NCBI GenBank assembly: GCA_018668695.1
Contig: JABJBS010000400.1
Span: 1-36,305 of the forward strand
Direction of reading: 5' to 3'
DNA length: 36,305 nt
Source of the DNA: Deltaproteobacteria bacterium
Lineage (GTDB): Bacteria > Myxococcota > XYA12-FULL-58-9 > JABJBS01
A program made the position numbers and the translations under genes. Below the pieces are notes generated by a model that saw nothing but the letters and a program-made list of their open reading frames with translations, searched no databases and was not told the origin of the DNA. How positions within the stretch are numbered: the stretch's first letter is position 1; every line of letters begins with the position of its first letter. Below, piece after piece: positions 10,435-28,802 of this stretch.

Positions 10435-11781
10435 ATGTCTCGAGATGTTGATCAAAGCGATACCCCCATTCTTCAAGACGAAGAAGAGCTGGTTACGTTT
10501 TTCAAGGCGTCAGAAAAATCTCCGGAATATTTCCGAGTCGGCGCTGAAACTGAGCGTGTTCTCTTTGCAAAAGACACCCTCGCTCCCATTCCATATGAAG
10601 GTGGAATTCGCCCATTGCTTGAGGGCATGACCCAAAAGGGTTGGAGCATGGAGCCTTTGGGTCTTCACAAGGACGGAATGTCCGTTTCGCTAGAACCAGG
10701 TGGACAGTTAGAGCTTGCGGGGCGGCCCGTGACTCACAGCGACGACACCCGTGCGGAAGTCGATACATTTAACCGCGAGATTTTAGACGTTTGTGAGCCC
10801 TTGGGAATAGGGGTGAGTAGCCTCGGAATGAGACCATTTTCGAGAGTAAGCGATGCATGTTGGATGCCTCGTGAGCGTTACCGTGGAATGCGAACCTATC
10901 TCGATGCTCAAGGCCAATGCGGTCACCACATGATGGTGATGACGGCCACGATTCAAGCAAATTATGATTTCGAGAGCGAAGCGGACATGGTTCGAAAGAT
11001 GCGCGTTGGAATGGGTGCATCCCCAATTGTAGCTGCGCTTTTTGCCAACTCGCCTTATGGGCCAGATGGCTGGACCGGATACCGAAGTCGCCGTTGTGCG
11101 ATTTGGTTTCATGTGGATCCTGAACGATGCGGCCTGCTGCCGATGGTTTATGAAGAAGATTTCGGTTTTCGAAAATACTTGGATTATATCCTCGATATAC
11201 CCATGTTCTTTTTGCAGCGTGGCGCAGTCTTTCATGATGTGGAAAGACTCACGTTTCGAAAGTTTTTACATGAAGGTTTTAATGGCGAGAAAGCCACATT
11301 GGCCGATTTTGAAACACATCTATCGACGATTTTTCCCGAAGTTCGCCTGAAGCGATTTATTGAAGTTCGCTCAGCTGATGGCGGGCCTGCTGAGATGGCG
11401 GCGGCGCTTGCCGCTTTGTGGAAAGGTCTTTTTTACGACCCAACATCGCTGGCTGCGGCAGACGCTTTACTCAAAGACTTCTCGATGCCCCAGCGGCTTC
11501 AAATGCAGCAATGTGCGGCTCAAGATGCCCTGAAGGGTCACGGTAAAGGATTTCACATGGGTGAACTTGCCAAGGAGCTGGTTAAGTTAGGCAGTGAGGG
11601 GCTCAAGCGCCTATCCGTAGGTGTGGGCGATGAGTCTCATCATCTGGCACCGTTAGAAGATATTGCTAATTCTGGGGAAACGCTGGCCGATAAACTATTG
11701 GCGAAGTTTGGTGCGGGCCCTCTCGATGAAAAGGCCCGTCGCAGTATCATGCAAGAAACGTCTATCGACGCCGCTTCCTAA
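10435..11781 (+). CDS. gshA: Glutamate-cysteine ligase, plant/proteobacterial (GCS2) type
   Basis: This 448-residue enzyme should join glutamate and cysteine with ATP to form gamma-glutamylcysteine, the first step of glutathione (or, in some bacteria, ergothioneine) synthesis. The family pattern is clear: FRVGAETERVLF near residue 35, VSLEPGGQLELAG near 85 (metal and glutamate site), MPRERYRGMRTYL with HHMMVMTATIQANYDF in the middle, and RFIEVRSADGG late in the protein. Length fits the plant-type family. AAGGA lies 11 bp before the ATG. It diverges from the FolE-like gene across 153 bp. Its last 20 bp overlap, tail to tail, the end of the minus-strand surface protein gene. No gshB is visible, so glutathione as final product is inferred. 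Confidence 0.9.
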   Translation: MSRDVDQSDTPILQDEEELVTFFKASEKSPEYFRVGAETERVLFAKDTLAPIPYEGGIRPLLEGMTQKGWSMEPLGLHKDGMSVSLEPGGQLELAGRPVTHSDDTRAEVDTFNREILDVCEPLGIGVSSLGMRPFSRVSDACWMPRERYRGMRTYLDAQGQCGHHMMVMTATIQANYDFESEADMVRKMRVGMGASPIVAALFANSPYGPDGWTGYRSRRCAIWFHVDPERCGLLPMVYEEDFGFRKYLDYILDIPMFFLQRGAVFHDVERLTFRKFLHEGFNGEKATLADFETHLSTIFPEVRLKRFIEVRSADGGPAEMAAALAALWKGLFYDPTSLAAADALLKDFSMPQRLQMQQCAAQDALKGHGKGFHMGELAKELVKLGSEGLKRLSVGVGDESHHLAPLEDIANSGETLADKLLAKFGAGPLDEKARRSIMQETSIDAAS

Positions 11782-14374
11782 GAAAAAACAACCCAGCTAA
11801 GAGCCACCAGAGTCCAGCGGGTGCTGCTGCACATCCAGCATTGGCATCCGTATCGCTGTCATTCATCAACGAGCCGAAAGCCGACGCTTCTGGGCTGTGC
11901 TTCTTAAGTTCTATTTTGAGAATGTCTGATTGATTGCCAGCACCATCGATGGCCATGAATTCAACCAGTCCGGTCTGCCCGGAGACATCGATTGTAGAAT
12001 CTGTTTGAACCCAGGATGCTCCTTCGCGCCGAGTCATCAGCTTCACATCCTCTGGCGTCGTGAGCTCATCAATTTGAATCTCTACTGTGTTGCCAGCGCG
12101 AGTTGAACTTAGAACGGGTTTATCGGGATCAACCAATACGTTCAGCGATTGATGCTTATATCCGTGCCAGAAACGCGTGTCGGCGTGTGAGCGAATATCG
12201 ATGGTGTGTTGACCGTGTCGATACAGTTTAGGGCTGCGCACTAATAATGTGTCGCCTTCCGTTCGCTTACCTGTCCACCAAGTGCCACCGTCTACTCGGT
12301 ACTGGTAGCTTCGACCCTGAGTGGGGCCAACGTGCACCAAAGCTTCTCCACTTGGGATAGCTTTCCATCGCTGAGGCAAATCGGTACGTGGAAGACTGCG
12401 GTACATTGAATTGGCTTCAGCTGAAGCGCCTTCACCCGTGGCTTCTTCAGTGCCGTCAGCTCCTTCTGCTACTGGCGGTGGCGTGTAGCACATGTTGTCT
12501 TCTGGGTTGGTGATCTGGTCTGGGCTGCAAAGGCTGGCATAGACCGAAATATACGGTGAGCCAGTTGGCCCAAGGTCTCTGCGAACAGTGTTGAGTCTTA
12601 GCTCTACAGGTGTACCAAGCGCACTGCCAAGGGTGTCGGCAATATCAAGGTCAAAGTTCAGATTGTCACCTACCAAGAGGTCGATGGCGATATCTACGAG
12701 GGTCTCGAAGAGTTGGGTCAGGTCAGCTTCTGGAACAAGCTCGTTGTAAATCTGCTGGGTGTTGGCGACGGCGATATCATCGACCGCAAGCTGAAGCGTA
12801 TGGTCCTCTTTACGAACGATATCCATGTTGAGTGCGATATCCGCGGTAAGCCCAGATACGCGCATCATCGCATCATCGATGAGCATGGAAATATCAATCT
12901 GCACATCATCGAGGGCCACTTGAAGAAGGGGATCGTGAACGCCTGCAGCGATTTCAGTACCTGCTCCAAGTCGGATACGTGGTGCATCCCGCGCGGTAAT
13001 ACTCAGCTGAATCGGTGATTGCATATCCACGAGTCCAAGCAGTCTCGGCTCGAAGTTCATCAAGAGGCCGGCTGTGACATCGAATTCACCGCCGGTGAGA
13101 GCACCAATTTCGTAAGAGTCGAGGCCCAGGCAGAGCAGTCCAGATTGAAAGAGGCCCCAGGCGGCTTGAGTAATCATCGCCTGGCTGGCTCCAAATGCCA
13201 TATGGTATGCTTCGAAGTGAGAGGTTCCATCGTCGTCTTGAATTTCAACAAATCCTGTAAACTCAGGAGGTGTCCCAATCAGGGAGGCGATATCCGGAGC
13301 AGCAGCTAATTGAGCACAGGCCGCTGGTGTTGTGGTGGTAAGCCCACCGACAAATCCTAGGTCGAGTCCTCTACCTGGCCCGCTGCCCGCAACTCCAAGG
13401 TTGGACGCTCCAACCTTAGCGTTGAGTGGTTTTGCACCTCGGAAGATTTCACCCAGCAATGTGGCCATATCCAGTTCGGTCTCGATACCAACAGGAATGC
13501 CTGCCAGCGCATCGCTTAATGCGTCGCCGATGACTGTTTCAAGGGATTGCCCAATTTGAACCATAACTGGATCAAGAACGGCGAGTAGGAAGTCTCCCAG
13601 GTCACCCGCTAGGTCTAAAATCTCGCAAAGGTCGGGGCAGTTCGCATCTTCAACCGAGCATGCTGGATCATTGCAGCTTGGATCACTTGGGTGGCTGCCA
13701 TCACAAGGCGTGATGTCTACGGCGATACTGGCTTGTTGGCTCTCCGTACCGAAGTCGATAACGATGTTGGCCGGTGTGATGGCGAGCATGTTTGAGCCAT
13801 TAGAAGTGTCCACGCCAAAGCCGACATCAAACGAAATCTCTTCAATGCGGATTGCAGGCGAGTTTGCGGGAGAACGAATCCGGCAGGCTGCTCCGGGCAG
13901 TAGATTGGTGTCTAGGTTCATGAGCAAGATCATATCGGCAAAGAGCTCGAGATCTTTGAGGGCGATCCGGATCGCTGGTGTTTGATCTGCAGCATTGGGG
14001 TCGTCGGCCGCTGGAACCCATTCTAGACTTAATGAATTGCGTAGAGTCTCAAGGTCCAAGCTTAGGTGGGCACCGTCGCGGAATAAAATAGGACTGTCTG
14101 GGCCCAGCATCGACTCATCGATATAGAACTTGGCCTCATCACCTTCGACGACGAAGAATGATGCCAGCAGTGAATCTAGATTGGCGCCAAAGAAGTCTAG
14201 GGCACTTTGCGTGACACGTGCTCGTACAACATCGGTCTGCAATTCTCCGCCAGCAGGCGCTGGATCGGGATAGGGTGCCAGGGCCATTCCAGCACAATCG
14301 GTGCAACCACCGCCTGTACCAGAGCAAGCCATCATAAACGTCAGGGAAATAGGGAGGAGCATTCGACTATTCAT
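11762..14374 (-). CDS. Large exported protein with lipoprotein-like signal and MYXO-CTERM-like C-terminal anchor
   Basis: The 870-residue product starts with a short hydrophobic signal ending MMACSG (lipobox-like, Cys17) followed by GTGGGCTDC. It ends, at residues about 846-870, with AGCAAAPAGLWWLLAGLF and then FLRKRRR. This tripartite Cys, hydrophobic segment and Arg-rich tail is the MYXO-CTERM pattern processed by myxosortase in Myxococcota. Between lie long amphipathic stretches (residues 40-620) with many acidic residues, a Cys-rich insert around 230-255 (CDGSHPSDPSCNDPACSV) and, from about 690, two or three Ig-like segments (SYQYRVDGGTWWTG; VEFMAIDGAGNQ). I recognise no catalytic domain. 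Having both an N-terminal lipidation site and a C-terminal sorting tail is odd. The start has only a weak ribosome-binding site; an ATG four codons later is possible. Confidence 0.85.
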   Translation of the reverse strand: MNSRMLLPISLTFMMACSGTGGGCTDCAGMALAPYPDPAPAGGELQTDVVRARVTQSALDFFGANLDSLLASFFVVEGDEAKFYIDESMLGPDSPILFRDGAHLSLDLETLRNSLSLEWVPAADDPNAADQTPAIRIALKDLELFADMILLMNLDTNLLPGAACRIRSPANSPAIRIEEISFDVGFGVDTSNGSNMLAITPANIVIDFGTESQQASIAVDITPCDGSHPSDPSCNDPACSVEDANCPDLCEILDLAGDLGDFLLAVLDPVMVQIGQSLETVIGDALSDALAGIPVGIETELDMATLLGEIFRGAKPLNAKVGASNLGVAGSGPGRGLDLGFVGGLTTTTPAACAQLAAAPDIASLIGTPPEFTGFVEIQDDDGTSHFEAYHMAFGASQAMITQAAWGLFQSGLLCLGLDSYEIGALTGGEFDVTAGLLMNFEPRLLGLVDMQSPIQLSITARDAPRIRLGAGTEIAAGVHDPLLQVALDDVQIDISMLIDDAMMRVSGLTADIALNMDIVRKEDHTLQLAVDDIAVANTQQIYNELVPEADLTQLFETLVDIAIDLLVGDNLNFDLDIADTLGSALGTPVELRLNTVRRDLGPTGSPYISVYASLCSPDQITNPEDNMCYTPPPVAEGADGTEEATGEGASAEANSMYRSLPRTDLPQRWKAIPSGEALVHVGPTQGRSYQYRVDGGTWWTGKRTEGDTLLVRSPKLYRHGQHTIDIRSHADTRFWHGYKHQSLNVLVDPDKPVLSSTRAGNTVEIQIDELTTPEDVKLMTRREGASWVQTDSTIDVSGQTGLVEFMAIDGAGNQSDILKIELKKHSPEASAFGSLMNDSDTDANAGCAAAPAGLWWLLAGLFFLRKRRR

Positions 14375-16450: not shown

Positions 16451-16572
16451 GACATATGAGTATCAGGTCTACTTCATTTTTCAACTCCCTGCGTCATAGG
16501 GGGAAAATCGCTGGACGCAGTAGCCAAAACAGGTAAGCTTAGGCATACATGTTCCCCTCAAGGAGAAACGAC

Positions 16573-17313
16573 ATGAAACAAAGACTTTGCGCAGGGCTCA
16601 TCATGGCTATGGCAGGTGTTGTGGGCTGCGAAAATTCGCAAACAATGGAAGCCCCCACTAAGCTTGAAGCCGCTAAAACGACCACGCATTGGTTGGTGAC
16701 AGGTGCTACGGATCTGCACGTTGAGCCAACTGAGAATAAATGGATCGCCCACCCTCAAGAGCCGCGGGATACTTCGAATTGGAAGGGGCTCGTGTTTCGT
16801 GGTGATAGCGTCAAGGTGATCCGTGAGAACGGCCAGTGGTCAGAAGTGCGTCAGGTGTCGGGAGCAACGGGTTGGATTCAAACAGAGTACTTAGTCGCTG
16901 GTGACGAGCTACCTCAGGCGACGCTGATTCAAGATACAGAATCGTTTATCAAAAAAGGTTCAGCTCAAGCTGACGAGACAAAGCTACGCCCCGGAAGTCT
17001 TCTTTTCATTCTGTCGCAAGATGGTACTTGGTCTGAGGTGAACGTCGCGAAGGGTAAGGCCCGCTGGGTTGAGACTTCAGCCTTGGTCATGGATGAAAAA
17101 GAGCTGGCGGTTGCTAAGTACATCGTCCAGGCAACTTGGCATACAAAACATGAAGGCTCTGGATACAACGGAAGACGTTTAGAAAAGGTCTTGGATAAAT
17201 ACCCAGACTCAGCGTTGCTCAATCGTTTAGCGGAAGAAGTGCCAATTCAGAACTTACGCGACATGGGTTATAAAGACGACCCAGCCGTAGAGCCGTTTAA
17301 TCAGAAACGTTAA
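16573..17313 (+). CDS. Lipoprotein with two SH3-like domains
   Basis: The 246-residue product has a lipoprotein signal (MKQRLCAGLIMAMAGVVGCE; lipobox VVGC, Cys19). Two SH3-like (SH3b) segments follow. The first spans about residues 40-110 (DLHVEPTENKWIAHP, then GDSVKVIRENGQWSEVRQVS and GATGWIQTEYL). The second spans about 115-175 (SFIKKGSAQADETKLRPGS, then DGTWSEVNVAKGKARWVETS). Such domains often bind cell-wall peptides. The tail has a short helical region (RRLEKVLDKYPDSALLNRLA). The ATG at 16573 is chosen because AAGGAG lies 8 bp before it. Its last 17 bp overlap the end of the minus-strand lipoprotein gene. Function is not known. Confidence 0.85.
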   Translation: MKQRLCAGLIMAMAGVVGCENSQTMEAPTKLEAAKTTTHWLVTGATDLHVEPTENKWIAHPQEPRDTSNWKGLVFRGDSVKVIRENGQWSEVRQVSGATGWIQTEYLVAGDELPQATLIQDTESFIKKGSAQADETKLRPGSLLFILSQDGTWSEVNVAKGKARWVETSALVMDEKELAVAKYIVQATWHTKHEGSGYNGRRLEKVLDKYPDSALLNRLAEEVPIQNLRDMGYKDDPAVEPFNQKR

Positions 17314-18856
17314 ATTGAACTTCGCCGGTTCCCTCTGAACCATCGTCTCTAAGTATGCTAACCCAGTATACGGTATCCGCTTCAGGATTAAACTCCAGAT
17401 GTTTGGCTGCATTGGCAGTGTTGTCACGAGCGACTCGGTCCGCATCAGTGTACCCACCTGCGAAAACCTCGATGGTAGGCGTTGCTCCTGAGAGTGTGAC
17501 CATGTCGAGTTCAAGTGTTTTACCTGCGCTCGTTGTTACCGTGAACCAGTCCTGCTCGCCGGAGCAGAGGGTGAAGTCTTTAAAGGTCGTAACAGGATCG
17601 GTGCCCACCTCATGTGAACCTTGGGCAATATTATTGGGTTCCCAATTATCATCTAGGCAAAAGCCGCCGGGGACTACGATTAGCTCCATGCTGACCGGCG
17701 CATCCACTGTTTCAAATTGCAAAAACTGAGCGTAGACTGGAGATTGCTCTAGTTTAGCGAGAGTTAAGCTAAGGAAGTTTCCTTGCCGAGTCGCTCCAGT
17801 AATTTGTTCAGAGTTTGCATTCATCAAGTAGAGTTCAGTTGTGCCGCGACTGGGATCGATTAAAGCATTGATGATGATTCCGTCTCCCACTGCCGCATCG
17901 ATTTCAAACCAGTCTTCATCACCTGTAAAGGCCGCCGGGTCATTGGTGCAGAGGGCAAAGTCATAATTGCCAGTGCCTACCGGACCATGAGCAACGATTG
18001 TACTATTTACCCAATCCATTCCATTGTTGGGTTCGAAGCTGTCTTCAGCGCAGCCTGCGGTAACGCATGTTCCTGAATCGCATAGGCGGCCCATGATGCA
18101 GTCGGTGTCAGCTGAGCATTCCGGAGCATCGAAACAAGTCGCCCCAAGGCATTGTTGAGAGCCCGGACACGGTGAAGATGAAGAGCACGTTCCACAATAC
18201 CCTTCGTCTGCGCACACAAGTGAGTCAGGACATTGTGAGTCTGCGGTGCAACCTTCAGGCGCGCATGCTTGAAGGATGATGTCGCAGTATTCATTGTTCT
18301 CGCAATCGGCGTTGGTGATGCATTCTGGCGCTACGATGCAGTCACCTCCGATACACACACGACCTTCTGTACAGTCAGCGTTGGTGGCGCATGTATCTGG
18401 TTCCAGGCAGGTTCCAGTCGTTTCATCACAGGTTTGGAATTCAGTGCAATTACAAGGTCCCGGTAATTCGTCATCGCAAGCATCGCCAATGTTATCTTGG
18501 TCGATATCCGTCTGATCCACGTTGGAGACCTCTGGGCAATTATCAACGTCGTCCTCAATGGTGTCGTTGTCTCGGTCTAGGTCACAGCTGTCACCAATGC
18601 CGTCTTCATCCTGGTCAGCTTGATCAGGGTTGTAGTCGTCGGCGCAGTTATCTTCGTCGTTAACAATCCCATCACGGTCATTGTCGTCGAGCACCTCGGT
18701 CTTACATTCAAACTCAACGCAGACTTGTCCCGCTTCACAATCTTCTGCGGTCGTGCATTCAACGCTAGACGGGTTACTGACAGGTTGTTCAAGCCCTACA
18801 CCACAAGCACTTGTGAGTATCGCTACGAATCCAATGGCTGTGAAATTTCGGTACAT
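17297..18856 (-). CDS. Cys-rich lipoprotein with TSP3-like calcium repeats and two PPC-like domains
   Basis: The 519-residue product has a short lipoprotein-like signal (AILTSAC, Cys18). Residues about 58-130 form thrombospondin type 3-like repeats (DDNDRDGIVNDEDNCADDYN; DQDEDGIGDSCD; DRDNDTIEDDVDNC) that should bind calcium. Residues about 135-270 hold six or so short Cys-rich units of the form C-x-x-DADC-x-x-G-x-x-C (CATNADCTEGRVCIGGDC; CITNADCENNEYC; CSADTDCIMGRLC). Two similar beta-sandwich domains follow, each opening with EPNN and containing DWF (SFEPNN...DEDWFEID near 280-320; NWEPNN...EQDWFTV near 410-450). That is the pre-peptidase C-terminal (PPC) pattern. It is the last gene of the three-gene secreted operon, 36 bp after the previous one. 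No enzyme is seen; a surface adhesion or scaffold role is inferred. Confidence 0.85.
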   Translation of the reverse strand: MYRNFTAIGFVAILTSACGVGLEQPVSNPSSVECTTAEDCEAGQVCVEFECKTEVLDDNDRDGIVNDEDNCADDYNPDQADQDEDGIGDSCDLDRDNDTIEDDVDNCPEVSNVDQTDIDQDNIGDACDDELPGPCNCTEFQTCDETTGTCLEPDTCATNADCTEGRVCIGGDCIVAPECITNADCENNEYCDIILQACAPEGCTADSQCPDSLVCADEGYCGTCSSSSPCPGSQQCLGATCFDAPECSADTDCIMGRLCDSGTCVTAGCAEDSFEPNNGMDWVNSTIVAHGPVGTGNYDFALCTNDPAAFTGDEDWFEIDAAVGDGIIINALIDPSRGTTELYLMNANSEQITGATRQGNFLSLTLAKLEQSPVYAQFLQFETVDAPVSMELIVVPGGFCLDDNWEPNNIAQGSHEVGTDPVTTFKDFTLCSGEQDWFTVTTSAGKTLELDMVTLSGATPTIEVFAGGYTDADRVARDNTANAAKHLEFNPEADTVYWVSILRDDGSEGTGEVQFNVSD

Positions 18857-18892
18857 GTTTATTTCTGACCTTATTTGAGAGTGCTCTATAAC

Positions 18893-21664
18893 TTAAGGAA
18901 GGGGAACAGCTTGGTAAAAGACATCGAAGTCTTCGCCCTCATTATTGGGTCTAACTTCGTCGTCGTCGCCTGCCGGGACATCATCGGACCATACAAGGTG
19001 GGCGAGGTCGTCGGCGTCAATAAACACACCAAGACCACCGGCATTTTCACCACCGCTGGTGACCAAAACCAGTTCGGGACTGTTCCACGTATAGGTGGCA
19101 CTTGTGCCTACGCGAGTTGCTTTGAGCATGCTGATATTGGCGTCGCCATTTGCATTCCGCTCGGACCAGAATACGACGACGTTGTCATCGTCGATCGCTT
19201 GGAGGTGCACGCCTGAGGAGTGGTACTCACTCATGGCGTTATTCAGATCAAACGATTGATAATTGGTTGTAATCATGTCCCCGCTGCTATCAAGCACTTG
19301 GAAAAAGACGTCGTAGTCGGAGCTACTTGCGAAGAGGTTTAGCTCATCGTGCCAGCCGATATAAACCAAATCGTTTTCACTGATAGAGATAGACGGGGCT
19401 CTTGAGTCTGCGTTCAGTGCATCGTCGAAGGTACCATTTAAGCTGCCACTGTTGCTGATAAGAGTTGTATTTTGAAGGGTGCCATTTTCAAAACTGCGGT
19501 AGTAGATATCATCATCGGTATTAACATCACTAAAGACAGTACCATCGTCCTGCCATACGATATGTGCATCGGAGTCGCTGTCGAGAGCCAGTACAGCGTT
19601 GCGGCTGTTGCCGTCGCCAACATCATTGCTCACTTCAGTTACCAAGCCCCATCCGTCTGCGGCAGTCCAGCGTGTATGCTGGATATCATGGTCTGTGCTG
19701 GTCGTGCGGCGTCGCCAAATAAGGTGAACGCTGCCATCTTCGGCGGCGGCTAGTTGAGGCTCATCGTCATTTCGATCTGAGTTTGCGACAACTTGGGTTT
19801 GGTTCATTTCACCCGTATTAACATTAAGAGTACGGTGAAAAATATCATAATCTGTAATGGATAAAGAATCTCCAGTATCTGACCAAACGATATGAAGTAA
19901 TCCATTAGAGTCTATTACGGAGTGAGAGTCGCCGGAATCACCATCAGGCAAATCAGTGGGGCTGGAAATAAGTAGAATATCGCTCCAACCGCTGGCATCG
20001 AACTTGCGGTAAAGAATATCCCAAGGAGCATTGTTGTCGCCTTGTGAGTAGGTGATGCATCCTGGGAACTGAACACATTCATCTGTCCAGACAACGTGCA
20101 TAGCACCATCGCTATCGTGATTGACGCTTACCGATCCGCTGTGCCCAGGGGAATTTGTGTCCGAGAGCAGCAAGGAACCAGCCTGGTAAAGGAAGGTTAA
20201 GCTAGCGCTGCTTTGAATACCAACACCGTTGGTCGCGGTTACGGTAATTGTGTGGAGCGTACCATTTTCAACACTGGATAATGGTAGCGTCGCTTGCCAG
20301 TTGTCACCGCTTCCTGTTCCAGGTTCACATTCCACAACATCGTCCAAGCAAATTTCAACGTCCGCTACTTGTGCGCCGCTTTCAGTACCGCCGAGAATTT
20401 CTGCTTCAACCACAACACTTGCGCTTGAGAGTACGCTGCCGGCTTCGGGAGTGATGATGGTAATGCTAGGTCCTAAGAGCTTGTAGATGGTGACACATGT
20501 CTCAGGGCTCGTGTTGCCTGCTAAATCGATTGAGCTAAAACAGATGAAGTTGTCGCCATCAACTAGGCTGGTGGTGTAATCCAATACTGAGGCGCCGATC
20601 CCGTCTATTTCGCTGCATGTTGGTTCTTGGTCGCGGCGCAAGCAGAGGTTTCCATCGGCGGCACGTGTACCTGTTATTTGCACAGTGGCTGCTCCAGTAC
20701 TCTCTGAAACTTCGTCGAGAATAGGTGCTTCAGGAGCAATCGTATCTAAAACGGTTTCGGCCGATGCAGGGACGCTGATGGAGCCTTCTGGGGTTTGAGC
20801 GTATACGTAAAAACTGTTTTGTCCTTCACCCAGGTCTATGTTGTAGGTCCAATTGAGGTCGTCGCCTGTCGGTACAATTTCAACAGGCTCAGTTGAGACG
20901 ACTGAGTCTCCCGCTTCAAGCTGTACCAGCCAAAGTGAGGTGTTAGCAGGTTTGGTTCCTACCAGAGGGTAGGGGTCCTGGCGAGTTGGGTTTGGAATGT
21001 CTTCAATGGTGACAGCGCCGACGCTTGCGGTGGTGCCGGCAATGCTTACGAGAGTGGCTTTGCTGACGTTGCCAGCTAGGTCGGTCGAGGTGAAGGAGTA
21101 AGTGTTTACACCAGCAACAACATCGACGGTGGTGGTCCAGCCTGTTTGACCATCCACTTGGATAAGGGTTGCACTGTCGAGGTCGAGAGAGCCATCACTG
21201 TCTTTGGTTCCGCTTAAGTTCATGGGGATTGATGTTTGCTCTCCCATGACCATGCTCGCACTGTGTGCATTGACCACCGGTGGTTCCGGGGCAATGGTAT
21301 CGAGCGTAATCACCACTTGAACAGATTCACTGTAGACACTTTGGTCACTTGTGCTGGCAGTGAGAGTGATTCTGTTGGAACCTTCATTCAGAGTTAAGTC
21401 AAAACTCCAAGTGGTATCCGCGGATGCACCAACTGCTTTCACAGCTTCAGGTTGCCCTACAAGCTGATACCAAATGATGGTGTTGGGACTTCGCTTGCCA
21501 GTCAGCGTGAATGCCGGCTCGTTGGTAAGGCTGTCGTAAGCATCAACCGTAGGTTTATCAATATCCCCGGGCGCGATGGTTGCTTTTTCGCCGCAACCAA
21601 TCAGCAGTGCGATTGATGTACAGCCAACAAAGAGTGTTCTGAGAACTGGATTTATTTTAGACAT
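18893..21664 (-). CDS. Lipoprotein with Ig-like repeats and a seven-motif propeller-like C-terminal half
   Basis: The 923-residue product has a clean lipoprotein signal (ALLIGCGE; lipobox LIGC, Cys24). Residues 35-510 hold about five bacterial Ig-like domains of one type, with repeated signposts: DTIAPEPPVV and DTIAPEAPIL, TSTDLAGNVSKA and SSIDLAGNTSPE, and endings such as NRITLTAS and NSFYVYAQ. Residues about 515-910 carry seven motifs related to D-x-x-x-H-x-V-W-x-D: AMHVVWTDE, LLHIVWSDT, SVHLIWRRR, DAHIVWQDD, LVYIGWHDE, NVVVFWSER and LAHLVWSDD. Seven evenly spread W-containing motifs suggest a seven-bladed propeller of sialidase/BNR style, without a recognisable active site. It is the middle gene of the operon, 26 bp after the 1827-aa gene. 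Probably anchored in the outer membrane as a binding protein. Confidence 0.85.
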   Translation of the reverse strand: MSKINPVLRTLFVGCTSIALLIGCGEKATIAPGDIDKPTVDAYDSLTNEPAFTLTGKRSPNTIIWYQLVGQPEAVKAVGASADTTWSFDLTLNEGSNRITLTASTSDQSVYSESVQVVITLDTIAPEPPVVNAHSASMVMGEQTSIPMNLSGTKDSDGSLDLDSATLIQVDGQTGWTTTVDVVAGVNTYSFTSTDLAGNVSKATLVSIAGTTASVGAVTIEDIPNPTRQDPYPLVGTKPANTSLWLVQLEAGDSVVSTEPVEIVPTGDDLNWTYNIDLGEGQNSFYVYAQTPEGSISVPASAETVLDTIAPEAPILDEVSESTGAATVQITGTRAADGNLCLRRDQEPTCSEIDGIGASVLDYTTSLVDGDNFICFSSIDLAGNTSPETCVTIYKLLGPSITIITPEAGSVLSSASVVVEAEILGGTESGAQVADVEICLDDVVECEPGTGSGDNWQATLPLSSVENGTLHTITVTATNGVGIQSSASLTFLYQAGSLLLSDTNSPGHSGSVSVNHDSDGAMHVVWTDECVQFPGCITYSQGDNNAPWDILYRKFDASGWSDILLISSPTDLPDGDSGDSHSVIDSNGLLHIVWSDTGDSLSITDYDIFHRTLNVNTGEMNQTQVVANSDRNDDEPQLAAAEDGSVHLIWRRRTTSTDHDIQHTRWTAADGWGLVTEVSNDVGDGNSRNAVLALDSDSDAHIVWQDDGTVFSDVNTDDDIYYRSFENGTLQNTTLISNSGSLNGTFDDALNADSRAPSISISENDLVYIGWHDELNLFASSSDYDVFFQVLDSSGDMITTNYQSFDLNNAMSEYHSSGVHLQAIDDDNVVVFWSERNANGDANISMLKATRVGTSATYTWNSPELVLVTSGGENAGGLGVFIDADDLAHLVWSDDVPAGDDDEVRPNNEGEDFDVFYQAVPLP

Positions 21665-21690
21665 TTTTGACCTCGTTAGAAGGGCTAACC

Positions 21691-24600
21691 CTACTGCTGC
21701 TGGCAGGTTCGAGCAACGCTGAAGGAGTAGAGTATAGGACTTTGATTGCTTTCGTTTGCGACCAAAACCATTCGAGTTTGAATAAAGCGATTTCCTGTTG
21801 GTACATCGTTAAGACTTGCGGGTGATGACTCATAGTATGTGTCTTCACTTGGGTACCACTGGCTCCAGTCGTCTCCATCTGGGTTGTCACCGACACGAAC
21901 TTGGAACTTAGCAACTGAACCGGCAGGTTGAGTTGTTAGATTCCACTGGAGGTAATCCCAGCTTGAAACAGTGGGTCCAAAGCAACCATCGATGATTTCT
22001 TTGTAGTCTCCCTGAGGGTCCGTAAAAGTGGCTCTTAGGTTACCGGTAAAGTCACTGTAGGTATAAAGTGAACCGCCGAGATTGCTTCCACCTGCAACGT
22101 CATTTGGATAAAAGCCGAAAGCACCGGTTGTTGGATCAAGTGCTGTTAGGTTGTTGGTTGTACAGTTGGCTGTCCAAATCTTACCGCTGCTACCAATTCC
22201 AATGCCAAGCGGAGCCTTGCCGCTGTTACCCATGTAGATACTGGTGGTTCGCGAGCCGGTATTGGAGTCGTAACCCATGATACGCCCTTGTTGACCACTT
22301 CCAGGGTAGGCGGAAATCCAAACGGTTCCTGCCGCATCGACCGTTACGCCTCGTGTGTACATATTGTCGCTGCCAAATTGGGACCATGTGTCGGACTGAG
22401 GCTCGTAGCGGCCGACATTCCAATTCTTGCCGTGGTTACCGAGCCAGACCCGGTTTTCTTGGTCGATGGCCACACCGTAGGTTCCTCGTTGCCAGTTGCC
22501 CGGTTGAGTTCGGATGCTGTGAAGCTGATTGGCTTCCCATCGTGCTGTAGAGCTTGCTGCATTCCAGAGTCCATTATCTTGCGGAACCCGGTAGTCGTTG
22601 GTGTTAAAGCTTTGAATTTGGCCTTGGTGACAACAGCTGTTGGGTGCCCAGAGAATGCCGCGGCCGTCGATAACTGCGCCGTAGGGCCGTACATCCATTC
22701 CAACCCAGCGTTTGATCTTACCGGTGTCTGAGTTCACTTCGAAAAAGCCGTACCTGTTGAAGTTACCGAGCCAAATGTCGCCTTCCGCATCAATCGCGAG
22801 CGCCCGCGGGAGATAGTAGCCATCACCCTTGGATTCGTAAGTTCCATCCTCATAGTAGGCTGGCTTTCGAGTCCAAAGAATACACTCGTCATTTTCTGCG
22901 TAGTACTCTTGTGCTTCACCGGCACCCACGGTCATATCGATGACGCCGTTTTCATTGTAATCGCCCGAGGTTTCAATCACCCCGTTGTTATTGATGTCGA
23001 CGCAGTCGCGTTCAAGGTTCGCAATCTTGGTGATGCTTCCTTGGGAGCTAAAGGCTCGGTTGGCGAGAAAAACGTTACCTCTTGCATCTACGGCAGTACG
23101 TGAACCGCGGTTACAGGACCCACAAGCTTCGCAGACGTTTGGAATACCGCGAGTTCGGCCATAGCTAGGCTCCGCGATAGCATTATCAACCGTGGCAGCA
23201 TTCGGCCCGAGAGCGCTACAGTATCGGCCAACTTCTTTACCCGTGGTCGTATCAATCTTGGATACATAGCCAGCGCTGTCTACGCCTACCCATGCAAACT
23301 CAACATCAACTTGTTCACTGAAGATCTCAAGGTCGTCGTCGTCGTTTACAATAATCGAGACAGAGTTGGTTCCCGTTGGGTTGAAGGGGAGTCCATCGTC
23401 GCCGCCGAAAACGGTTTCGTTACAGTTGGCCCCGCAGTGCCCACAGGCATTGAGGACGCCTTCATCTACGCCATCATCGCCAGGTCCGCAGACAACCCCA
23501 TCGCCGTTGGTATCACCAGGGCAGTTACAGTTGTTGTCTTTGTAATCACAGACTTCATCAAGGCCTGGGCCAACGGTTGCATCAGAATCGTTACAATCCC
23601 AGGAACCAGTAAAGCTCCCATTATCGTCGACGTCGTTTGAGCAGTAGTAGTCATAGGCTTCGCCAACAGGCGGTGAGTTTTCACGATTGCAGTCCACACT
23701 GCCCGGTTCGCAGCCGTAACCATCGCGGTCATTATCCAGGCCTTCATCCGCGCTTATGTCGCAGTCGTTGTCTTCGCCGTCGCAGCTAAGTTCGTCTGGG
23801 GACTCGGCGGCAGGAAGTGGTGTACAGACCGTCACGACACCCGTATCGGTACACGAGTTAACAGAAAGGCAACCACCGAGGCCGCAGGTCTCAGGAACCC
23901 ACTCTTCGTCGAAGACACCGTCACAGTCATTATCAATGGCGTCGCAGCTTGTATCGACAGTCACCTGGGCTGCCAATGGAATACATTCAACTTCAGTGCC
24001 GTTAACGCAGGCAGAAGTATTCTCGCAGGGACCAAAGCCGCAGCTTACCAAGGAGTAGTCTTCATCGATTAAGCCATCGCAATCGTCGTCGAAGCCATCA
24101 CATGTGGTGTCGCCTCCGATTGGGTCAACATTACCAAAGCACGAGCACTCGCCATTGACATCGACATCGACAGAGATGCCTTCGCAGCCGTAATCGGCAG
24201 GATTAATATAGCCATCACTCGGGATGTAGATCCCTGTACTGTTTTGGTTGAGATAATGTTCATTGTAAATTGCGATGATAAGACACTTACTGTCGACAAA
24301 GGTATTCACCGCATCGGAAAGGGTACCGGCGATACGACCGTCAGATAAGGCCTGCATAAGCTTGTTGTAGCGGCACTCTGCAACCTGAACTTTTTGGTCG
24401 AGGTCATTAACGCCGCCGGTTGTCCAGAATCCGCCATCGTCTTTGAGCATTTTTCTGTTCTGGGTAAGCACTGTGTTGGCGTTGCCCAAAATGTTGTAGA
24501 GCGATGTTTCACCCTCGTACATGGAGAAGTTGACGATGTAGCCGAGGCTCAAAATGAGACCGCCCTGCCAATAGTGCGTGTAGATGAGTCCGTTGTTGGT

Positions 24601-27174
24601 GTTGGGGTCTCGCAGATACTGAAGCGCCTCAACTGCGCTCATGTAAACATCTTCGATTAGGATTTGGTTATTAAATCCTTCGCCCTCAAAGTTCCAATTA
24701 CTTTCTTGAATGGTCTGGACCAAGTCAGCAAAGTTGTGGATCTCAGCTTGAATCGTAATGAGATTGGCAAGGATATCTTGAGTGATTCCGGAAAAGCGGC
24801 CATCGGTTGCGTCGCTTGCAAATCGGGTCATCTGCCCATCTACCGTAAGCGAGGTATTGTCCCCAAAGCTAACCGGGGTGCCGCTTCTGTAGAATCCCTC
24901 ATCGATCTCTTGGGCTGTTTGGTTGACTGGACGGTCGTAGAGTTCGGCATAGGTTGAATCTTTAAAGAGCATTACAAGGGTATCGAATGCGTTTAGGGCG
25001 TAGTCTATCGAGTCGAGTGGATCTACCGCTTCTTTGGAACGTGAAAGTTCCACAGAGGCCAAGTTCAGTGTTTCGTCCACTTGAACCAGGTGGTCTTTTT
25101 CTGGGTAAAAGGAGCCATCTACCTCTACGAGGTTTGTACCAACCAGCCACTCACGTTGTTTGTAGCGCTCTAAAGTTGCTTGCTGTCCAACTGGAATTGG
25201 GTCGGGGTTGGATAGAACACTCCAGTCAGTAAGAATGTTGGATACTAGTTTGTCGTTATGGATTTCGACGATGCGCCGACTTTCACTCAATATGGCGCGT
25301 TTAAGGTCAGCTAGAATCGTTTCCGTATCTTCGATATCTCCCAATATTGCGTAGGCTCTTCGGGCGAGCAAAAAGGCGTGTCCTGGCGAGTGCACGAAAA
25401 TGGCACTGGCATCAAAAATGAGATCTTGCGCTGAACGAATATCGAATATTTGAAGTGGGTCTGTCTCGGGACTGTCTAAAAGGTGTTGAAGCCATGTGGC
25501 ATGGGCATCCAGAGCGGTGATGATGTTACCAACGATAAAGGGGTAGTCCTCAACCGTCTGGTTGCCAGCCCCATCTGTGATGGTCAGTCTCAGTTTGAAA
25601 CTACCATTTCCTATCGAGCCGAAGGATAGTTTATTGTTGATGCAGGCAGGTGAGTTTGCATCACAGCCTTCAATACGCATGTTGGGGTTGCAGCTGTTAA
25701 GATCGCCGTCAGCGCAGGTCACTGCTTGGCTGGCAACGCCAACAAGTGTGGCGCCTGTGTTTGCGTTGACGATGGAGACATCTACGGATTGAACGCCGCT
25801 TTGAGTCTGACCTTCCAAATCGGTCGCATCAAATTCAAGAGTGAGTTTTTCGCCGTGAAAAAATACCGGCCAAGTGGTTGCATCAGCTGGATCGACATTA
25901 ATGATTTCATTCGGGTCATTTACGCCCGGGCGGGTCGTCCCCATGCCGGCAAAGTTGTGACTTGGCTCTGTCCGATCGATCGCAAAACAAGTTGAGGCAT
26001 TGGCACCAACATCGCCGCCAACTGTGGCAGATAGATACACTGGGCAATAAACTTCTTCGGGGCTAAATGTATAGGTGACGGTATCGTTGAGTCCGGTGGT
26101 CTGGTTAGAGCCTTCGTTGGGTACCTGACCTGAGATTGCAACCCAGTTAACGGTTCCGGCGCCTGCACCGCTTACAGTTGCGGTGACGGTGACTGATGCT
26201 GCGTTGGTAAAGCCTGAAGGACCGTTGGATTGAACGGTAAGTGGCAGGCTGCCGGCAGGAGCGACATTGACACTGAAAGAGGGAATCGTATCTGCTTGAG
26301 GCTGATTGCCTTGAGCATCGTAGATTTTTAATTCGATGTTGTGGTTACCGTCGGGCAGGCATTGCTCAGGGTTCACGCTTTCGTTGAAGTGGGTACTGTG
26401 TGCCCACGTGTAAACAATGTCCGCAGGCGCTGTACATGCGTCGATCGCAGAAGGCCTAGGCAGTCGGACCCACGTGCCACTTAGACCACCGGGTGTAAAG
26501 CATTCGCCCACTTCACTCAAAACGGTAAAGTTTGAGGGTGTCGCAACAATGGCTGGAGGCGTGGAGTCTAAAACGTTGATGGTAATAATTTCAGTATCAC
26601 TGTTGGCGTATAGGTCGAAGACAGTCGCAGTTAGAGTCGATTCACCAAATTCGTATATATTCCCTTCAGGGAAATCGTAGATCGCAATGGGACTGGGGTC
26701 ACATAAGTCTGTGACGAGAAACTGACTTGGGTTTATGTCGATTATGCTTTGTCCAGGTGAGTTGCATTCACAGGTGACATTGGTAGACGACGCCAAGCAG
26801 CCTGGAGGGCTTGTGTCAAAACGAACCGACGGTGCGAGACTGTCTTGGACGATAATATTTACATTTTCGGTCGCCACATTTCCCGAATTGTCAGAAGCAG
26901 TGACAGTGACCCAGTGTGAGCCAAAGGGGTATTCATCCGGGTTCACATTGCTACAAGTCGTGCAGTCATTGCTGATCGAAACTGTGGGAAGCGGATCGAC
27001 ATTATCACTGACTGTGAGCGGAATTTGAATCGAGGTCGATGGGTTTCGGCATTCTGCTACCTGGCTTTCAACGGTGATCGTTGGGGCAGTGGTGTCAGCG
27101 ATGGCAGTTTGCGAGACAAGCCCTGCACTTAAGCACGCGATGACTAAAGGTTTTACTGATAGAAACCTGGTCAT
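21691..27174 (-). CDS. Giant secreted multidomain protein: HYR/Ig domains, helical core, MopE-like metal-binding repeats, propeller-like C-terminus
   Basis: This 1827-residue protein begins with a Sec signal (VIACLSAGLVSQTAIA, cleavage near residue 26). Residues 28-545 are HYR/Ig-like domains with disulfides (LTVSDNVDPLPTVS; WVTVTASDNSGNVA; LRLTITDGAGNQ). Residues about 548-1000 are helix-rich, nearly free of Cys, and match nothing I know. Residues about 1015-1265 contain four MopE-type units (CDGFDDDCDGLIDE, CDAIDNDCDGVFDE, CDGEDNDCD, CDYKDNNCN), acidic and likely to bind metal. Residues 1280-1720 hold repeats with WLGNFN, WAPNSC, WLGNHG, WISAYPG and WTANC, like the NHL or virginiamycin B lyase propellers. 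A final beta domain (WSQWYPSE; RFIQTRMVL) has no C-terminal anchor. AAGGATAGATA precedes the start. It heads the three-gene operon. Confidence 0.88.
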   Translation of the reverse strand: MTRFLSVKPLVIACLSAGLVSQTAIADTTAPTITVESQVAECRNPSTSIQIPLTVSDNVDPLPTVSISNDCTTCSNVNPDEYPFGSHWVTVTASDNSGNVATENVNIIVQDSLAPSVRFDTSPPGCLASSTNVTCECNSPGQSIIDINPSQFLVTDLCDPSPIAIYDFPEGNIYEFGESTLTATVFDLYANSDTEIITINVLDSTPPAIVATPSNFTVLSEVGECFTPGGLSGTWVRLPRPSAIDACTAPADIVYTWAHSTHFNESVNPEQCLPDGNHNIELKIYDAQGNQPQADTIPSFSVNVAPAGSLPLTVQSNGPSGFTNAASVTVTATVSGAGAGTVNWVAISGQVPNEGSNQTTGLNDTVTYTFSPEEVYCPVYLSATVGGDVGANASTCFAIDRTEPSHNFAGMGTTRPGVNDPNEIINVDPADATTWPVFFHGEKLTLEFDATDLEGQTQSGVQSVDVSIVNANTGATLVGVASQAVTCADGDLNSCNPNMRIEGCDANSPACINNKLSFGSIGNGSFKLRLTITDGAGNQTVEDYPFIVGNIITALDAHATWLQHLLDSPETDPLQIFDIRSAQDLIFDASAIFVHSPGHAFLLARRAYAILGDIEDTETILADLKRAILSESRRIVEIHNDKLVSNILTDWSVLSNPDPIPVGQQATLERYKQREWLVGTNLVEVDGSFYPEKDHLVQVDETLNLASVELSRSKEAVDPLDSIDYALNAFDTLVMLFKDSTYAELYDRPVNQTAQEIDEGFYRSGTPVSFGDNTSLTVDGQMTRFASDATDGRFSGITQDILANLITIQAEIHNFADLVQTIQESNWNFEGEGFNNQILIEDVYMSAVEALQYLRDPNTNNGLIYTHYWQGGLILSLGYIVNFSMYEGETSLYNILGNANTVLTQNRKMLKDDGGFWTTGGVNDLDQKVQVAECRYNKLMQALSDGRIAGTLSDAVNTFVDSKCLIIAIYNEHYLNQNSTGIYIPSDGYINPADYGCEGISVDVDVNGECSCFGNVDPIGGDTTCDGFDDDCDGLIDEDYSLVSCGFGPCENTSACVNGTEVECIPLAAQVTVDTSCDAIDNDCDGVFDEEWVPETCGLGGCLSVNSCTDTGVVTVCTPLPAAESPDELSCDGEDNDCDISADEGLDNDRDGYGCEPGSVDCNRENSPPVGEAYDYYCSNDVDDNGSFTGSWDCNDSDATVGPGLDEVCDYKDNNCNCPGDTNGDGVVCGPGDDGVDEGVLNACGHCGANCNETVFGGDDGLPFNPTGTNSVSIIVNDDDDLEIFSEQVDVEFAWVGVDSAGYVSKIDTTTGKEVGRYCSALGPNAATVDNAIAEPSYGRTRGIPNVCEACGSCNRGSRTAVDARGNVFLANRAFSSQGSITKIANLERDCVDINNNGVIETSGDYNENGVIDMTVGAGEAQEYYAENDECILWTRKPAYYEDGTYESKGDGYYLPRALAIDAEGDIWLGNFNRYGFFEVNSDTGKIKRWVGMDVRPYGAVIDGRGILWAPNSCCHQGQIQSFNTNDYRVPQDNGLWNAASSTARWEANQLHSIRTQPGNWQRGTYGVAIDQENRVWLGNHGKNWNVGRYEPQSDTWSQFGSDNMYTRGVTVDAAGTVWISAYPGSGQQGRIMGYDSNTGSRTTSIYMGNSGKAPLGIGIGSSGKIWTANCTTNNLTALDPTTGAFGFYPNDVAGGSNLGGSLYTYSDFTGNLRATFTDPQGDYKEIIDGCFGPTVSSWDYLQWNLTTQPAGSVAKFQVRVGDNPDGDDWSQWYPSEDTYYESSPASLNDVPTGNRFIQTRMVLVANESNQSPILYSFSVARTCQQQ

Positions 27175-27500: not shown

Positions 27501-28802
27501 ATGGGAATTGAGCTGCTTAGCTATCTCGGTGCCGCGTTTCTTGGCGGAATTATTCTAAACATCATGCCGTGTGTATTGCCCGTCCTCACGATGAAGGTGT
27601 TCCATATTGTTGAACGAGGAGCCTCAGACCCTGCAGGCAACCGCAAACACGGCTTGGCTTACACCGCAGGTATCCTTTTTGCCTTCACAGTTTTCGCTGG
27701 GTTTATCATCGGCATCCGTATGTCTGGAGACAGCGTGGGCTGGGGCATGCAGTTTCAGAACCCTGCTTTTGTTGGGGTGCTCTGTGGGTTGATGGTGGTT
27801 TTAGCTTTGAACGCACTCGGAGTTTTCGAATTTGCGGTCAGCATGAACGTAAAAGACGATGACGGGGGCTACGGGGCAAGCTTTATGAACGGAGTCGTAG
27901 CGGCTGTGATGTCGACGCCTTGTTCGGCACCATTTTTGGGCTCGGCAGCGGCGTTTGCTCTGGGTTCAGGTGTGAGCTGGTACACAACACTCGCGATTTT
28001 TCTCTTCATTGGCCTTGGTTTGGCGTTTCCTTTCGCGCTGATTAGCTTTGTTCCGGGGGCGAGTAAGGTTCTGCCCAAGCCTGGCAACTGGATGAATACC
28101 TTTAAAAGCTTGATGGGCTTTACGCTTTTGGCGGCGGCGGTTTGGCTCTTTGGGGTTCTCATGGGTCAGATCACTCGAGACGGTGCTCAGTGGTTCTTGG
28201 GTTTTTTGCTTTTGGTGGGTCTGGGACTTTGGGCTGTCGAGCATTTTGGGGGGCTGCAGCATAGTACGCAGCGCCGCATTGGTATCCGAGCAGCTGTCAT
28301 CGTGGCCTTGGTGCTTTCAGGTACACAAATGATTGATTTTACGAAGCCTGAAAAAGTGGAATCCAAGCCAACCTTGGCCAGCCAACCGGTGATCAAAGAT
28401 GGAAAAATCAATTGGGCCGATTTTAGCCCGTTTAGAGTTGGCCTAGAGCACAAGCGTCAGCGCCCGGTGTTCATGGATTACACAGCCGATTGGTGCCTGA
28501 ACTGTAAGACCAATGAGAAGGCATTCATTGAGACCGAAGCAGTACGCAAGGCTTTGGTCGAGACAGATATTCTTCCGATGGTGGCCGACTGGACCAATGA
28601 GGATGAGGATATAACCAAGTGGTTAGAAAAGCTTGGTCGAACCGGTATCCCCGCTTACGTCGTGTACTACCCGAATGGTGAATACGATCTGCTTCCGGAA
28701 GTGATCACCGAGAAGATGATATTGGATATGCTGGACCGTGCTAACACCAAGTATCCACTGGCAAATTATCGGTCTATGGAAGAAGCCTGCGCGGCTAACT
28801 AA
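27501..28802 (+). CDS. DsbD-family thiol:disulfide interchange protein lacking the N-terminal periplasmic domain
   Basis: The 433-residue inner-membrane protein carries electrons from cytoplasmic thioredoxin to the cell envelope. Eight or so membrane segments span about residues 5-285. The membrane cysteine pair is Cys24 (NIMPCVLP) and Cys141 (MSTPCSAP), the standard DsbD-beta positions. A periplasmic thioredoxin-like domain (about 305-420) has the redox motif DWCLNCK (Cys332, Cys335) and the cis-Pro in TGIPAY. The N-terminal DsbD-alpha domain of the E. coli protein is absent, so another protein must pass on the electrons. The start has GAGG 8 bp upstream. It is transcribed divergently from the Cys-rich secreted operon, whose products it might help to fold; that link is inferred. 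Confidence 0.92.
   Translation: MGIELLSYLGAAFLGGIILNIMPCVLPVLTMKVFHIVERGASDPAGNRKHGLAYTAGILFAFTVFAGFIIGIRMSGDSVGWGMQFQNPAFVGVLCGLMVVLALNALGVFEFAVSMNVKDDDGGYGASFMNGVVAAVMSTPCSAPFLGSAAAFALGSGVSWYTTLAIFLFIGLGLAFPFALISFVPGASKVLPKPGNWMNTFKSLMGFTLLAAAVWLFGVLMGQITRDGAQWFLGFLLLVGLGLWAVEHFGGLQHSTQRRIGIRAAVIVALVLSGTQMIDFTKPEKVESKPTLASQPVIKDGKINWADFSPFRVGLEHKRQRPVFMDYTADWCLNCKTNEKAFIETEAVRKALVETDILPMVADWTNEDEDITKWLEKLGRTGIPAYVVYYPNGEYDLLPEVITEKMILDMLDRANTKYPLANYRSMEEACAAN

Follow-up and report, generated by a model that had tools for sequence, protein, structure and literature searches.

Genes for a giant exported protein and a propeller lipoprotein recur together in Myxococcota and may encode a two-component cell-surface module

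Myxobacteria-like bacteria are rich in large modular surface proteins, and we know of little that explains how those with neither a lipid nor a MYXO-CTERM anchor remain attached to the cell. A locus on contig JABJBS010000400.1 (assembly GCA_018668695.1) of a Myxococcota genome raises this question together with a second: which of its surface-protein genes belong together? The window, that is, the whole stretch of DNA analysed, has 36,305 nucleotides; on its minus strand genes 1, 2 and 3 stand in a row, encoding proteins of 1827, 923 and 519 residues with gaps of 26 and 36 base pairs (bp) between them. A sequence-only reading had suggested that the three could form one metal-dependent extracellular complex in which the giant product of gene 1 is held by two lipoproteins. 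Its gene layout is borne out by open reading frames (ORFs) at exactly the coordinates it gave, as are its two lipoprotein signals (lipoboxes LIGC in gene 2 and TSAC in gene 3) and the cleavable type I signal (AIA/D), without an anchor, in gene 1. Comparison of sequences across the phylum indicates that the pairing of genes 1 and 2 is truly conserved; the two are neighbours in six genomes that are only distantly related, so that they probably encode an undescribed two-part surface structure. The parts of the pair are as follows, with signal peptides called by inspection.

21691..27174, minus strand: gene 1, giant exported protein, 1827 residues
27097..27174, minus strand: gene 1 type I signal peptide, residues 1-26, AIA/D at 24-27
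25978..27096, minus strand: gene 1 N-terminal HYR/immunoglobulin (Ig)-like modules, residues 27-399, variable (Big_13 28 bits; HYR 16.7 bits, sub-threshold)
25528..25977, minus strand: gene 1 Ig-like domain directly before the helical domain, residues 400-549, conserved in alignment A1
24175..25527, minus strand: gene 1 conserved helical domain, residues 550-1000 (from profile, alignment and AlphaFold2 (AF2) model)
23524..24123, minus strand: gene 1 MopE-type Cys/Asp-rich repeats, residues 1018-1217, with four C-D-x-x-D-D-x-C-D-like motifs
21691..23448, minus strand: gene 1 Vgb-like propeller and C-terminal domain, residues 1243-1827
18893..21664, minus strand: gene 2, lipoprotein, 923 residues, Ig-like repeats and then a propeller at the C-terminus
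21593..21664, minus strand: gene 2 lipoprotein signal, lipobox LIGC, lipid-bearing Cys24 (invariant in six family members, alignment A4)
18896..20152, minus strand: gene 2 propeller, residues ~505-923, with seven H-x-V-W-x-D-like motifs

The core of gene 1 is a domain of ~450 residues (~550-1000), predicted to be helical in the AF2 model and not mentioned in the sequence-only reading. It has no match in Pfam or NCBIfam; a sequence search of the PDB returned Ig-type matches and a weak match to ELMO1 (E = 0.03), and Foldseek with the helical model against the PDB and BFVD (viral predicted folds) returned only Ig-like matches and noise. The model was built from ten sequences with a predicted local distance difference test score (pLDDT) of 73, the preceding Ig-like part forming a beta-sandwich at mostly 80-92; as the helical model is only of moderate quality, the absent fold match is weak evidence. 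Six positions (W651, Y844, T866, W869, C964 and C997) are invariant in the ten members. Gene 2 carries the seven-motif propeller, likewise absent from the earlier description, and its AF2 model is of moderate confidence (pLDDT 71). For gene 2, Pfam gave no matches other than Ig-like ones, a PDB sequence search with it found nothing, and a plasmid search produced one match, weak and of Ig type. The conserved parts of its family are the lipobox, the first Ig domain and the propeller, and the shortest member (583 residues, on contig C79) keeps exactly these. The giant and lipoprotein pair defines two protein families that the searched libraries do not name.

Profile searches were run over 195 genomes of this one phylum, with few candidates scored per genome, so absences from genomes are provisional. 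The profile of gene 1 residues ~400-1010 found strong relatives only in G000 (the genome of the window), G003, G040, G052 and G056, and a second, diverged subfamily of the helical domain (alignment A2) occurs in G015, G028 and again G000; both subfamilies together are thus confined to seven genomes. Full-length relatives of gene 2 (>600 bits) are present in exactly G000, G003, G015, G040, G052 and G056, the weaker matches in other genomes covering the Ig repeats or the propeller part only. Six genomes, spanning five families, therefore hold both, and the random probability that sets of six and seven among the 195 share six members is ~1e-10.

The two families are also encoded together at every locus that shows both. 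Several contigs end inside giants, and in G040, G052 and G056 contig ends conceal what lies upstream of them. Gene 1 is followed by gene 2 on the same strand in the window, in G040 and G052 and at two loci of G056 (C247 and C877), with anything from an overlap of a few bp to a gap of 119 bp between them; in G003 and G015 the order is gene 2, Cys-rich lipoprotein, giant (2-3-1), against 1-2-3 in the window. The sequence-only reading would have been refuted by genes that are never neighbours in related genomes; this outcome was not observed, genes 1 and 2 being neighbours in 6/6 genomes with both families and a Cys-rich lipoprotein joining them in G003 and G015. A second set is found in G000 itself, where C79 (L091:5390-13314) encodes the 583-residue gene-2 relative (128.9 bits) and, overlapping its end, the beginning of a giant that is cut short by the contig edge. 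The alternating repeats of this giant resume at the start of contig C111, in an ORF (L069:3-8540) with the helical domain near its end; frame and repeat continuity suggest one split gene, which if joined would encode ~4,900 residues or more; a search for overlapping ends of the two contigs came back empty. Facing the split giant in convergent orientation is a Cys-rich lipoprotein of >4,000 residues made up of CGDG-ECDDGN-type repeats (L069:9781-20000 and L074:1-2491, minus strand).

The partners appear to have been inherited together. In the helical-domain tree as in the propeller tree, the G015 pair groups as sister to the second G000 pair at 100% support, with G028 joining them in the helical-domain tree, and the pairwise distances of the partners correlate over seven pairs (r = 0.72, Mantel p = 0.0024), mostly due to the G015/second-G000 pair. 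The deep branches of both trees are not resolved.

Beyond this core the giants differ widely. All those with visible N-termini bear an export signal (type I-like also in G003 and G015), with neither a lipobox nor MYXO-CTERM; the C-terminus of gene 1 (...SVARTCQQQ) has no anchor, and MYXO-CTERM matches are absent from the window, with six elsewhere in its genome. At the N-terminus, the giant of the window has HYR/Ig-type modules, those of G056 and G052 have FnIII-like and PA14-like ones, and the second G000 giant has repeats of ~115 residues in tandem. Behind the helical domain, the tail comprises MopE repeats and the Vgb-like propeller in the window, with a similar but diverged arrangement in G003; it is EGF-containing on C111 of G000, RCC1/fibrinogen-like in G028:C22, and absent or short in the G015, G040, G052 and G056 giants (PA14, FnIII, RCC1 and fibrinogen labels were assigned by eye). 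Since the modules outside the core vary between loci, the metal-binding motifs are accessory, and metal dependence as a shared feature was rejected: MopE and TSP3 modules are missing from most related loci, so that the proposed metal-dependent complex is not supported. The 3547-residue giant of G003 (L055/L056) has 184 cysteines, with many short Cys/Trp-rich inserts across its Ig, MopE and propeller parts that were not seen in its relatives.

Giants exported without a lipobox or MYXO-CTERM need some way of being retained. We give roughly even credence to a conserved two-component cell-surface module in which the helical domain binds the lipoprotein and the giant is thereby tethered at the surface. 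The giant would leave through the Sec system and pass on to the surface, where the helical domain and the preceding Ig-like domain would bind the Ig/propeller part of the outer-membrane lipoprotein; this binding would retain on the cell a rod of Ig-like modules that would otherwise be soluble, and the remainder of the giant would serve as swappable display material for adhesion or for contact with polymer or prey. The lipoprotein as tether is the simplest reading of a conserved helical domain that is co-inherited with a conserved lipobox, first Ig domain and propeller, in giants that lack an anchor of their own. More tentatively, and with doubt prevailing, we suggest a wider system of surface display in which this new helical-domain family docks giants of up to ~5,000 residues on cognate propeller lipoproteins, with several mutually specific pairs per cell. 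Several points weigh against tethering. The contact between helical domain and lipoprotein is one that we infer, we assume that the lipoprotein is exposed on the surface, and both AF2 models (pLDDT 71 and 73) are only moderately confident. Both families are patchy: of 195 genomes, six have one and seven the other. G028, the additional genome with the helical domain, has a solitary giant of 1578 residues (C22, L072:5711-10447) with no gene-2 neighbour; completeness of that genome is 59%, and a contig end truncates one of the two giants in it. After its helical domain the solitary giant has, by eye, Cys-rich, RCC1-like and fibrinogen-like parts.

Two other readings of the pair are unlikely, and equally so. 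Gene 2 could be an export or folding factor that helps the giant to cross the outer membrane or fold there, and would then not be bound as a tether. The same co-occurrence and co-inheritance fit this reading, and the principle of a partner protein dedicated to a large export substrate is known; however, gene 2 has no barrel or secretion-type domain, and its Ig repeats and propeller resemble a binding surface. Alternatively, the two could be co-regulated surface proteins acting on one target, such as a polymer or a prey surface, with no direct contact. That both are made up of general binding modules and that gene order varies among loci (1-2-3 versus 2-3-1) speak for such a set, but partners that pair strictly one to one and diverge in parallel, also for the two pairs within one genome, go beyond what shared regulation requires.

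Gene 3 brings in the larger assembly of the sequence-only reading.

17297..18856, minus strand: gene 3, Cys-rich lipoprotein, 519 residues, with TSP3, DUF7107-like and PPC-like modules

Its lipobox TSAC (Cys18) is of PROSITE type. A Cys-rich lipoprotein accompanies the pair in G000, G003 and G015, representing three lineages and 3/4 of the loci with all sides visible; the chance of this is 7e-5 to 2.5e-3 for a background of 0.9-3% per gene, a rough estimate from a small sample of 115 ORFs. The three third genes are alike only over ~30-50 Cys-rich residues at most and the lipobox (E of 0.4 or more), their other domains differing, and a third gene was seen neither at the second G000 pair nor in the sequence that follows the pair downstream in G040, G052 and G056. 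One of only four DUF7107 matches in G003 is its third gene; the third genes of the window and G015 are not among the DUF7107 matches listed, which made such counts only partly useful as a test for gene 3. That all three proteins form a metal-dependent assembly, with the giant held by both lipoproteins, is favoured by the recurrence of the Cys-rich lipoprotein and by the DUF7107 match in G003. Set against it are third genes that cannot be aligned beyond the short Cys modules, the lack of one at the second G000 pair, TSP3 and MopE modules that are not common features and the small sample behind the chance estimate, and we regard it as quite improbable; the trio is not supported as a unit. 'Some Cys-rich lipoprotein' probably has a functional role in the cluster without being a conserved third component. 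Judged jointly with the two-component module, and with the same evenly divided confidence, gene 3 would be a facultative Cys-rich companion, looser than the pairing of genes 1 and 2.

An enzyme with a binding partner, the helical domain being a glycoside hydrolase-like or thioester-like alpha/alpha fold and the lipoprotein binding its substrate, would account for very weak fold matches over most of the helical model to a GH9 enzyme, TEP1r and alpha-2-macroglobulin (E 0.02-0.05, template modelling (TM) score 0.12). These matches are at noise level, and the positions invariant in ten relatives are W, Y, T and C, with no D or E among them; a catalytic helical domain was rejected as the lead reading, and we consider this explanation very improbable. 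Chance neighbours can be dismissed: Ig, HYR, MopE and TSP3 modules are indeed very common in the phylum, but the uncommon core domains co-occur, always together, in six genomes from five families, and the co-occurrence and adjacency data contradict an accidental arrangement.

This abundance also bears on the domain labels with which the sequence-only reading had linked the three genes. Scored against Pfam cut-offs, TSP_3 in gene 3 (PF02412, 41.6 bits, cut-off 25), Big_13 and Glucodextran_B pass, whereas HYR (E = 0.0097; 16.7 bits, cut-off 21.7), MopE (PF11617, 24.7 bits, cut-off 27), PPC (24.0, cut-off 25.9) and the Vgb propeller (23.2, cut-off 50) do not, so that the TSP3 label is upheld and the HYR, MopE and PPC labels stay sub-threshold. 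Gene 3 as a query matched 49/58 genomes of the phylum, the MopE part of gene 1 matched many genomes, and a scan of genome contigs with gene 1 gave MopE-type relatives only. Modules as common as Ig, HYR, MopE and TSP3 cannot by themselves show that the three genes belong together.

In the literature library searched, no paper on this giant and lipoprotein pair, or otherwise relevant to the gene set, was found. By layout, the closest described two-gene surface system is TraA/TraB, the outer-membrane exchange receptor operon of myxobacteria (PMC6372800; PMC11980579), which likewise combines a surface receptor and a partner, with a modular variable region and Cys-rich and TSP3 repeats (PMC6372800). 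TraA differs in its MYXO-CTERM anchor and TraB in its outer-membrane barrel and OmpA domain; here MYXO-CTERM, barrel and OmpA are all absent and the giant is accompanied by a propeller-bearing lipoprotein. The profile for MtsC, a cell-cell cohesion MYXO-CTERM protein (NCBIfam NF047638), matches gene 3 in its TSP3 region over profile residues 190-285, but at 62.1 bits against a cut-off of 350, through the TSP3 repeats only and without MYXO-CTERM. Stand-alone proteins of ~700 residues with a Vgb-like propeller and MopE repeats, which are common in this phylum (G006, G009, G030, G039 and others), align at 34-37% with gene 1 residues 1131-1825, whereas in gene 1 this part sits behind the Ig and helical domains and most related giants lack it. 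G015 has three genes in tandem (C13:90-5939) that are relatives of the Vgb-like C-terminal region in gene 1. The gene-2 model also matches fragments of GhpA (grappling hook protein A of Aureispira), which has chains of Ig-like domains; the match is a generic one between Ig chains (TM 0.13-0.16, 11-16% identity), and neither homology nor a hook is supported. Set beside these systems, the recurrent giant and lipoprotein with an unnamed conserved domain constitute a specific, testable candidate anchor, and the two diverged pairs in one genome would permit a direct test of partner specificity.

Around the locus, promoter and terminator patterns show no excess over shuffle level. A predicted 870-residue lipoprotein (MACSGTGGG) without a Pfam match is encoded at 11762-14374 on the minus strand. 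At 27501-28802 on the plus strand, a DsbD-like thiol-disulfide protein gene lies divergent from the Cys-rich gene set; it was not seen at the other loci examined, and its position may be coincidence. At the other end, the stop of gene 3 runs 17 bp into the convergent gene at 16549-17313.

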